Shown in pieces: positions 53,586 through 57,502 of a stretch of DNA of 64,000 nt. The stretch comes from Haladaptatus pallidirubidus (GTDB lineage Archaea; Halobacteriota; Halobacteria; Halobacteriales; Haladaptataceae): assembly GCF_020700235.1 (NCBI RefSeq), contig NZ_CP085301.1, positions 434,001 through 498,000 of the forward strand, written 5' to 3'. The notes under the pieces were generated by a model that saw only the letters and a list, made by a program, of their open reading frames with translations, did no database searches and was not told where the DNA came from. The stretch's first letter is position 1; each line of letters opens with the position of its first letter. The position numbers and the translations under genes were made by a program.

Positions 53586-54644
53586 TTAGTTAGGATTTGA
53601 ATCCTCGCGATTTTCTTCGATATTTTCCGCGGGAATAGCCCTGAACCGTAGTTTGAACACCGCGCCCTCGTCGCCGTTTTCGACCCCGATGCCGCCGCCG
53701 TACTTCTCCAGCAGTCGGGCGACAAAAAAGAGGTCGAGGCCCTGCCCGTGGTGAAGCGGGCTGATTTCCTCCCGACCGAAGATTAAGTCGTGTTCGTTCG
53801 CAGAAATACCCGGGCCGTCATCAGCAACCGTCACTGTGGCGACCGAATCGTCGCTATCGAGACGAACCGAGACGGTTGGAACGGACGAGTCGTTGTGCTC
53901 GACGGCGTTTTCGAACACGGCTTCGATTGCGGTTCCGGCGGCGTCGTCGGCGGCGACGAAGACTGGATCAGTGCCGAGTTCTGCACTGAATTCCGCCTCT
54001 GGATACATTTTTTGAGCGGAACGGAGTTCGTCTCGGAGGAGTTCGTCGAGGCGAACAGGCGCGAGCGAGGGGTCGGTTCGCTCGGAGAGCAGTTCGTCCA
54101 GATTGCGAGCCGTTTCCGCGTACTTGATGATGGAGTCGATGCGGTTGCGAGCGGTCGAAAGCGACCGCACTAACTCCTCGTCTTCCAGTTCGTCGGCGAC
54201 GATATCCACGTGCCCGAGGATAACGTTCGCGTCGTTTCGCAAGTTATGCCGGAGGACGCGGTTCAGGATTCGAAGACTCTGTTCGTACTGTCGGCGCTCG
54301 GTGAGATCCGAAAAGAATCCGGCGTATCCGCGGAGTTCTCCGTCGATTCGAACAGGGACGCACGAACCGCGACCATAAACCATCCGCCCATCCTTCATCG
54401 TTGTCTCGAACCCGCCGACCCACGGTTCGCCCTTTGCCAGCGATTCTATCATCGCTTCGTATATCACCGGTTCGCTGAACAGGTTTATCGGCGTATCTCC
54501 GACAAGTTCGTCCCTACTGTAGCCGGTAAAATCGATACAGGCCTCGTTTACGTCCTGTATGACGAAATTCGAATCGGTGATAACGGCGGGATTTTTCGTC
54601 TCCCGGAAGGCGGTTTTGTAGATAGCCGACTCGAAACACTCCAT
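53586..54644 (-). CDS. PAS-domain sensor histidine kinase
   Basis: A 352-residue soluble kinase. A PAS domain covers about residues 8-120 (NPAVITDSNFVIQDVNEACI, GYSRDELVGD). The H box is NRVLRHNLRNDANVI with the phosphoryl-acceptor His133. The catalytic domain has N box VFENAVEHND, G1 ADDGPGI and G2-like GQGLDLFFV. There is no membrane helix, so it would sense a cytoplasmic signal. No response regulator is adjacent, as is common in haloarchaea. The final codons abut the propeller remnant. Confidence 0.93.
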   Translation of the reverse strand: MECFESAIYKTAFRETKNPAVITDSNFVIQDVNEACIDFTGYSRDELVGDTPINLFSEPVIYEAMIESLAKGEPWVGGFETTMKDGRMVYGRGSCVPVRIDGELRGYAGFFSDLTERRQYEQSLRILNRVLRHNLRNDANVILGHVDIVADELEDEELVRSLSTARNRIDSIIKYAETARNLDELLSERTDPSLAPVRLDELLRDELRSAQKMYPEAEFSAELGTDPVFVAADDAAGTAIEAVFENAVEHNDSSVPTVSVRLDSDDSVATVTVADDGPGISANEHDLIFGREEISPLHHGQGLDLFFVARLLEKYGGGIGVENGDEGAVFKLRFRAIPAENIEENREDSNPN

Positions 54645-54732
54645 GTCTCGATATGTAATCGAGAGCCGAAACGTATATTCTTATCGAGAGTACGTATCTT
54701 TTCGGATAGCTTTTATAAAATGTAGCAGAAAT

Positions 54733-54744
54733 GTTTTTATTATC
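54733..54744 (+). promoter_or_regulatory. TATA box of the terpene-synthase-like gene
   Basis: TTTTTATTATCC lies about 29 bp before the ATG at 54768, the spacing expected for a leaderless message. The promoter looks intact although the coding frame is interrupted. Confidence 0.5.
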
Positions 54745-54767
54745 CATACAGTAAAGAAGACACGAGA

Positions 54768-55751
54768 ATGCCCCGCCAACGGCTCGTCGACGAGCTACCG
54801 ATTCCTTCAGAACATCTGACAGAGATAGCAGCGGTAACGCTTCCCGATTCGGTTGCAAAGCTGTCAGATGAGTACGATACCGTTGTTGGCGACCGAGACA
54901 AGTTCCTCTGGCAGTGGATATACACGCTGTTCCCTTCGTTTACCCTTTCGTCCGTTCCGGCGGAATACGCGGAGACCGCTCGGACGCAGAAGACGATTCT
55001 CACGATGTTCGTAACCCTGCTGGACGACCTCGCGGAGAAGGGCAACGACCGAGAAACGCTGGAGGAGGCGTGTCAGATTCCGTATCGGCCCGAAACCGTA
55101 AATCCCGACAGGGAAGGTGTGAAAACGGAGCAGTTACGCTTCATCAAGCGGGTCTGGTCTGCCTTCGAAGACGGTATCGAAGATGCACCGAAGCACGACG
55201 AGTACAGGGATATCTTCGACTGCGATCTCCGGCAGACGCTGACCGCCATTGATTACTCCCGTGTGTTGAACGATCACGTCGAAATCGCAAATATGGCGGG
55301 AATAGAGCATTACGACCCGCACAATATGTTGATGTTTCCGTACGCTGACGTCGATTTGATGTTCTCGCCGTCGTTCGCCGCGAGCGACCTTTCGACGCTC
55401 CGGTCGGTCATCTGGGAATTGCAACGGATGGCTCGAATCGGTAACTAGACGACGACGTGGGAGCGCGAACTCGGCGAAGGAGATTACACGGCCGGGCCGG
55501 TCATCTACAGCCTCCAGGAAGGACTCATCTCGCTAGAAGATTTAAACCCCGACGACGACGATGCTATCGAGCGAGTGACGGAACAAATTCGGTCACACGA
55601 CATCGAAGACCGGTTCATCAACGAATGGGAACGGCGATACGAGGCCGTGAGGGAGCGACAAGAACGGGCGGACAGCGTCGATCTCGATTCCTTCGTAGAC
55701 GGGATGCGAACGGTGCTGGCGTACCAACTCGCGGCGCGCGGTCGGAAATAG
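54768..55751 (+). pseudogene. class I terpene-synthase-like gene with in-frame amber codon
   Basis: A 327-codon frame interrupted once by TAG at 55446-55448 (codon 227). Before it the protein has the first metal motif DDLAE (residues 86-90; DDxxE type) and helical character throughout. After it the same frame continues TTTWERELGEGDYTAGPVIY and stays coding-like to TAG 55749-55751. Around the amber codon the sequence is RIGN-stop-TTTWERE: Asn226, Thr230 and Glu234 match the NSE motif (N-D-x-x-S/T-x-x-x-E), and the stop falls on the second position. Without translation past it the second metal site is lost. A nonsense mutation (for example TGG to TAG) is likeliest. Confidence 0.72.
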
Positions 55752-55897
55752 CGCCATAGTGACAGATAATCAAATAATCCAGTGATAAATACGTGATTAT
55801 TGTACATAAACTATTAATTTAATATCAGATATAAAATGAAAAATTGATGGACGGATATAGAAAGTCACTTTTATGATGCCATGTGTACCCAATTGTC

Positions 55898-57502
55898 ATG
55901 GCATCAGATTTCGGAGCACTGTCGCTGGTACCACCGCTACTGGCCATCGTATTGGCCGTCACCACGCGGCGAGCGATGCTGTCGCTGTTCATCGGTGTCT
56001 GGGTTGGTGGCATCATCTACTCCGGTAGCCTCGGCGTCGCACAGATGTTCGACTGGATTATCTCGTCGATCGGCGAGAGCACGTTCAACGCGAAAATTCT
56101 CGTCTTTACCCTCCTGATAGGGGCCGGAATCGCGCTTATCTGGCGATTGGGCGGTGCGTTTGCCATCACGCGGTTCGCCACCCAGCGAATCGACTCGCAT
56201 CGTAGGGCGGGCATCACGACGTGGCTCCTCGGTCTTCTCTGGAACTTCGACGATTACGCCAACAACGCCATCGTCGGCAGTTCGATGAAAGACATCGCCG
56301 ACGAGATGAAGATGTCCCGCGAGAAACTGGCGTACATTCTCGACTCGACCGCCGCGCCGATGGCGACCATCGGGCTTTCCAGTTGGGTCGCGTTCGAAAT
56401 CGGACTGATACACACCCAGTACGAGGAACTCGGCATTCAGGGAGAGACCCCCACTGCGGCCACGACGTTCCTCCAGAGCATCCCCTTTAACATGTACGCG
56501 ATTCTCGCACTGGCGATGGTCGGCATCATCGTCATCACGCAGCGCGATTTCGGCGAGATGCTCACTGCCGAAAACCGCGCACAAACCACCGGAAACGTCA
56601 TTCGAGAAGAAGCTCAGCCACTACAGAGCATCAAGAAGGATTTGGGCGAACCCGCACTCGACGACGCACCCCTCCGGATGTTCCTCTTACCGGTTTTCGC
56701 GCTCGTCACCGTCGTCATCGGCGGGGCAGTGATAACGGGGTACGCCCCCGGACGGACGCCGATTGAGATGTTCGACAACACGGACGTCGCTGGCGCGCTC
56801 GTCTGGGGTTCGTTCGCCATGGTTGCGACGGGTATCGTCCTGTCGCAGGTTCACGGCGCGATGAGCTTAGACGAGACGATGGAAACCGTTCTCAACGGAT
56901 TCGGAACGATGCTTCCGGCGGTCAGTATTCTCGTGTTGGCGTGGTCTATCGGCTCCGTCGCCAGCGCGCTGGAAACCGGCGCTTACGTCACTGCGTACGC
57001 CGAAGGAGTCGTCTCACCACTCCTCCTGCCCGTCGTCATCTTCCTCATCTCCGCCTTCATCTCCCTCGCCATCGGCACGTCGTGGGGAACGATGTCGATA
57101 ATGACGCCGATAGTGATACCGATGGCGTGGAGTATCGGCGGCGAGTCGTCGCAGCTCATCGCAATTGCCGTGGGTGCGATGTTCAGCGGCGCTATCTTCG
57201 GTGACAACTGCTCCCCCATCTCCGACACCACGGTTCTCGCATCGACGTTTTCGGGGTCGGATCACATCGACCACGTCCGAACGCAGATGTACTACGCGGG
57301 AACCGTCCTCATCGCGACGGCGGCCATGTACCTACTGTACGGACTCACGAACGTCAATCCGCTCGTGCTCCTTCCGGTCGGCGTCGTAGTGTTGGTCGCA
57401 CTGGTCTACGCGTTTTCGGAGTGGGATGCAAATCGCAAGAATATCTCATCGAAACCGGCCGCGAAACGACAGTCGAAACCCGACGTGACTAGCGACGACT
57501 GA
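55898..57502 (+). CDS. nhaC: NhaC-family Na+/H+ antiporter (second copy)
   Basis: A 534-residue NhaC-family membrane protein from ATG 55898. TTTTATGA about 27 bp upstream supports this start. Landmarks match the 6.2-kb copy: NFDDYANNAIVGSSMKDIAD (about residues 115-134), GTSWGTMSIMTPIVIPMAW and FSGAIFGDNCSPISDTTVLA. Overall it is clearly a distant paralogue rather than a recent duplicate. The tail is basic-polar. The cation or organic partner cannot be told. Confidence 0.92.
   Translation: MASDFGALSLVPPLLAIVLAVTTRRAMLSLFIGVWVGGIIYSGSLGVAQMFDWIISSIGESTFNAKILVFTLLIGAGIALIWRLGGAFAITRFATQRIDSHRRAGITTWLLGLLWNFDDYANNAIVGSSMKDIADEMKMSREKLAYILDSTAAPMATIGLSSWVAFEIGLIHTQYEELGIQGETPTAATTFLQSIPFNMYAILALAMVGIIVITQRDFGEMLTAENRAQTTGNVIREEAQPLQSIKKDLGEPALDDAPLRMFLLPVFALVTVVIGGAVITGYAPGRTPIEMFDNTDVAGALVWGSFAMVATGIVLSQVHGAMSLDETMETVLNGFGTMLPAVSILVLAWSIGSVASALETGAYVTAYAEGVVSPLLLPVVIFLISAFISLAIGTSWGTMSIMTPIVIPMAWSIGGESSQLIAIAVGAMFSGAIFGDNCSPISDTTVLASTFSGSDHIDHVRTQMYYAGTVLIATAAMYLLYGLTNVNPLVLLPVGVVVLVALVYAFSEWDANRKNISSKPAAKRQSKPDVTSDD

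Follow-up and report, generated by a model that had tools for sequence, protein, structure and literature searches.

Organization of the locus

The interrupted gene lies within the window, the whole stretch of 64 000 nucleotides that was analysed from Haladaptatus pallidirubidus (C1:434001–498000, on a contig of 3.8 Mb in a source assembly of 6.27 Mb and seven contigs). Its frame contains a single in-frame stop at codon 227, beyond which it stays open for a further 100 codons up to a TAG at codon 328. The initial annotation had described a frame with a DDxxE motif at residues 86–90 that is cut once by an amber codon, and its coordinates and translation were confirmed. The read-through translation (residues 1–327) aligns over its full length with stop-free orthologues that are 87–92% identical, and homologues occur in 121 of the 392 sampled haloarchaeal genomes (39 of 86 genera); the interrupted frame is thus not a chance one. 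The distribution of this terpene-synthase-like family across the haloarchaea is patchy, and the window's genome carries no second copy of the gene elsewhere. The features of the locus are collected in Table 1.

The block upstream of the start codon, with its TATA-like element, is kept across the five genus sequences compared, being near-identical in loci L002, L031 and L032 and well conserved in L033. This conservation supports the earlier impression that the promoter is intact, and the block is probably the promoter of a leaderless transcript.

Table 1. Features of the terpene-synthase-like locus (window coordinates)
Feature	Position	Strand	Remarks
PAS/histidine-kinase ATPase gene, divergent neighbour	53586–54644	-	Syntenic in the genus
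Conserved upstream block with TATA-like TTTTTATTA (54734–54742)	54720–54751	+	Conserved in orthologues
Interrupted terpene-synthase-like frame	54768–55751	+	ATG at 54768–54770; single internal stop
5' part, codons 1–226 and premature TAG	54768–55448	+	
First metal motif DDLAE, residues 86–90	55023–55037	+	Asp86 and Asp87 invariant; Glu90 in at least 90%
Second metal motif (NSE-type), N226-x3-T230-x3-E234	55443–55469	+	Broken at 227
Premature TAG, codon 227	55446–55448	+	Trp (TGG) in intact homologues
Untranslated remainder, codons 228–327 and natural stop TAG	55449–55751	+	Natural stop is codon 328 (55749–55751)
Na+/H+ antiporter family gene (PF03553), downstream	55883–57502	+	Syntenic in the closest species

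Relationship to class I terpene synthases

The model of the H. litoreus orthologue, predicted with AlphaFold2 from an alignment with 27 relatives, is all-helical with a mean pLDDT of 92.3. Its top Foldseek matches are class I sesquiterpene synthases with a probability of 1.00, including 10-epi-cubebol synthase (7zrn) and T-muurolol synthase (9hqm), bacterial-type enzymes of the PF19086 kind with which it has the all-helical fold in common. The TM scores of these matches are about 0.55–0.60, with sequence identities of 12–15% and modest E-values (best 3e-4). The Pfam family PF19086 (Terpene_syn_C_2) is matched by 18 of the 28 family members (best E-value 2.3e-8), and several members, taken singly, fall below its gathering score. 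The window protein has no Pfam match, and searches of NCBIfam and of PDB sequences gave nothing useful for it; its placement comes solely from the fold prediction and from matches to other members of the family.

The intact orthologues carry both an aspartate-rich motif, DDxx(D/E), and an NSE motif, (N/D)Dxx(S/T)xxxE, in which the second place is taken by Trp rather than by the usual Asp. The spacing of 140 residues between the family's DDxxE and Nxxx(S/T)xxxE motifs is a further likeness to class I terpene synthases, from which the family differs in its low sequence identity and in the form of the second motif, NW[LVIT][TA]TWExE. Residues Asn226, Trp227, Thr230, Trp231, Glu232 and Glu234 are invariant in the 28-member alignment, which agrees with the initial assignment of Asn226, Thr230 and Glu234 to the second metal motif. 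Candidates for the diphosphate-sensor Arg are Arg43, Arg212 and Arg223, which are also invariant in the family; the C-terminal RY pair, at 291–292, is not. As far as fold and metal motifs are concerned, the predicted model and the alignment together make assignment of the family as class I terpene-synthase-like well supported. Among the papers searched, none describes a characterised enzyme of this type from haloarchaea; PMC8600319 mentions only predicted terpene clusters, in Halomicroarcula.

The codon at position 227

Residue 227 is Trp in all 43 of the aligned intact haloarchaeal homologues, and its codon is TGG in every homologue in which it was read in frame. Alignment of this codon had been proposed from the outset, together with the possibility that homologues naturally end here; the closest orthologues instead run uninterrupted through position 227. 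Since the Trp is invariant and is encoded by TGG, one G>A change accounts for the stop. Such a transition at 55447 would convert the Trp227 codon to UAG and end translation at residue 226, ahead of Thr230 and Glu234, so that the complete second metal motif is absent from the truncated window copy. The product would lack these Mg-binding residues and all of the helices that follow and, on the established class I mechanism, would be catalytically dead, with no turnover of a prenyl diphosphate.

The two parts could in principle be made as separate chains (226 and about 100 residues) that reassemble into one enzyme, and neither half contains any other stop. The first in-frame ATG, GTG or TTG past the stop is, however, a GTG at codon 270, downstream of Thr230 and Glu234, so the second metal motif would be missing from any chain restarted there, and no homologue matched as two chains divided at codon 227. 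A split gene or restart was rejected on the position of this first start codon, in line with the low rank that separate chains had been given initially, and we attach almost no weight to reassembly.

Constraint was compared on the two sides of the stop. Relative to H. litoreus, dN/dS is 0.079 overall, 0.081 for codons 1–226 and 0.073 for codons 228–327, as anticipated from the earlier remark that the remainder of the gene is not decayed. Three-point counts assign 23 nonsynonymous and 67 synonymous changes to the window branch, a ratio of 0.34, the same as that between the two sister species (0.36). From simple counting with a Poisson upper limit, the share of the branch that was unconstrained is at most about 5.5–7.5%. 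Because dN/dS is equal on either side of the stop, inactivation is confined to at most about the last 6–8% of the branch, or else the stop is a base-calling error. The undecayed codons past the stop fit a very recent inactivation, and a functional read-through or a base error would fit them too.

A base error in sequencing or assembly would mean that the true codon is TGG and the gene intact. One difference alone breaks the gene, there is no other decay on either side of it and the assembly shows 15% marker duplication, all of which speaks for such an error. Against it, the difference is a substitution, the sequence around it is neither repetitive nor a homopolymer, and the contig is 3.8 Mb long. 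Sister species have lost this gene as well (see below), which makes a real mutation plausible; we regard an error as improbable.

Decoding of UAG

Read-through of the UAG, whether by natural suppression or by programmed recoding, would yield full-length enzyme at a low or regulated level. The intact conserved promoter block and the purifying selection on codons 228–327, which is indistinguishable from that on codons 1–226, are both compatible with it. The search of the genome for pylS and suppressor tRNA genes that had been suggested at the start gave a different picture. In a profile search of the window's genome the best PylS matches scored 26.7 and 21.3 bits against a cut-off of 178, with one control genome over the cut-off and similar sub-cut-off matches in most control genomes. 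None of the 53 tRNA matches has a CUA (CTA) anticodon or a stop-reading anticodon of any kind, in a scan that other intron-bearing tRNAs could escape; an intron-bearing tRNA-Trp that the scan overlooked has the anticodon CCA. Near-cognate reading of UAG by tRNA-Trp(CCA) would require a second-position mismatch. A pattern match on contig C2, considered as a second, plasmid-borne tRNA-Trp that might act as suppressor, proved not to be a tRNA.

UAG also serves as an ordinary stop. TAG ends 13 of the 53 heuristically called genes of the window, the terpene-synthase-like gene among them, and UAG, UGA and UAA interchange at the ends of orthologous genes; in three relatives (H. litoreus, G123 and G392) the synthase gene itself ends in TAA. 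The in-frame UAG is shared with pyrrolysine recoding, from which the present case differs in that neither PylS over the cut-off nor a suppressor tRNA was found, that UAG is a normal stop and that the relatives have Trp at this position, not Lys or pyrrolysine. The intact relatives all have TGG, hence the UAG is not conserved. On the PylS, tRNA and stop-usage results, recoding was set aside as a working hypothesis, in keeping with its low initial ranking, and we consider read-through in any form very unlikely. It is equally hard to credit that the amber codon is read at a useful level without dedicated recoding machinery, in which case terpene-synthase activity would hinge on amber suppression.

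Two further observations concern the tRNA genes. A tRNA-like gene (G000:C1:236688–236772, minus strand; locus L137, L099) has as its anticodon arm a stem closed by a tetraloop, and is thus a tRNA-like gene without an anticodon. Its homologues across the haloarchaea have conserved acceptor, D and T arms and variable anticodon arms; 81 of 194 genomes gave matches, a large number of which are partial. The gene is similar to the 't-elements', tRNA-like sequences of Haloferax (PMC4326828), but there is no 5S rRNA within 1.5 kb of L137. Separately, tRNA-Thr(UGU) and tRNA-Leu(UAA) are present in extra gene copies beyond the main chromosome (G000 contigs C1, C2, C3, C4, C6 and C7), and these may be relics of elements that integrated at tRNA genes.

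Intact, broken and missing copies in related genomes

Intact orthologues occupy the same chromosomal place in four Haladaptatus-clade genomes, with identities to the window copy of 92% (H. litoreus, G394), 91% (G123), 87% (G392) and 75% (H. salinisoli, G395). In all four the PAS/histidine-kinase gene lies divergently upstream, and in the three closest the antiporter gene lies downstream. The H. halobius copy (L106, G393:C1:2032000–2048000) is at the same locus and is broken in other ways: it has TAG at Trp216, TGA at Arg223 and the substitution D87N, and a deletion has taken the 5' part of the kinase gene next to it, most of which is lost, together with the promoter between the two genes and approximately the first 20 synthase codons, start codon included. 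In G326, G396 and G397 the kinase, synthase and antiporter genes are all missing from the ~10 kb beside a conserved hydrolase gene. The nine genomes of the genus thus comprise four with an intact gene, two with a broken gene and three without it. Since the gene is broken or absent in sister species, it appears by this comparison to be dispensable in the Haladaptatus clade.

In the three genomes without the gene (loci L134, L136 and L135 of G326, G396 and G397, respectively), other sequence fills the ~10 kb from the left flank to the hydrolase gene, and at two of these loci the left flank is a MazG-like gene. This replacement marks the kinase–synthase–antiporter region as a variable block.

Outside this genus, a small haloarchaeal gene whose product may be related to the HalOD1 output domain, which it resembles, adjoins the synthase-like gene at 22 of the 46 loci of homologues, from several genera (many of L003–L021, and also L035, L036, L038 and L109, in the upstream flanks), compared with one such neighbour in unrelated loci of the window's genome. 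None stands beside the Haladaptatus copies. A regulatory link between the two genes is possible from this arrangement.

Probable inactivation of the gene and its implications

The window gene is very probably a strain- or species-level pseudogene that arose through a single G>A nonsense mutation. The change is one step from a conserved sense codon and intact orthologues are present at the same locus. The case resembles ordinary nonsense pseudogenes in the single base change to a stop, the intact syntenic orthologues and the repeated loss in sister species, and differs from them in that the window copy has no other decay so far. As no further decay is seen, the inactivation is probably very recent. 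The initial annotation had preferred a recent nonsense mutation, and the invariant Trp, the equal constraint on both sides of the stop and the independent breakage in a second species favour the same explanation. We infer from these comparisons that the base is real, that activity has been lost and that the need for the product has relaxed. The ancestral protein would have been a class I terpene-synthase-like enzyme, dispensable in the clade and lost repeatedly. Independent breakage or absence of this gene in sister species marks the case as ordinary gene loss rather than a new genetic code.

The value of the finding is modest, the stop codon itself being a matter of routine gene loss. Its interest lies in a terpene-synthase-like family of the haloarchaea that some species of the Haladaptatus clade keep under strong constraint and others have discarded, and in the natural loss-of-function pair that the window strain and H. 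litoreus provide for finding the product.
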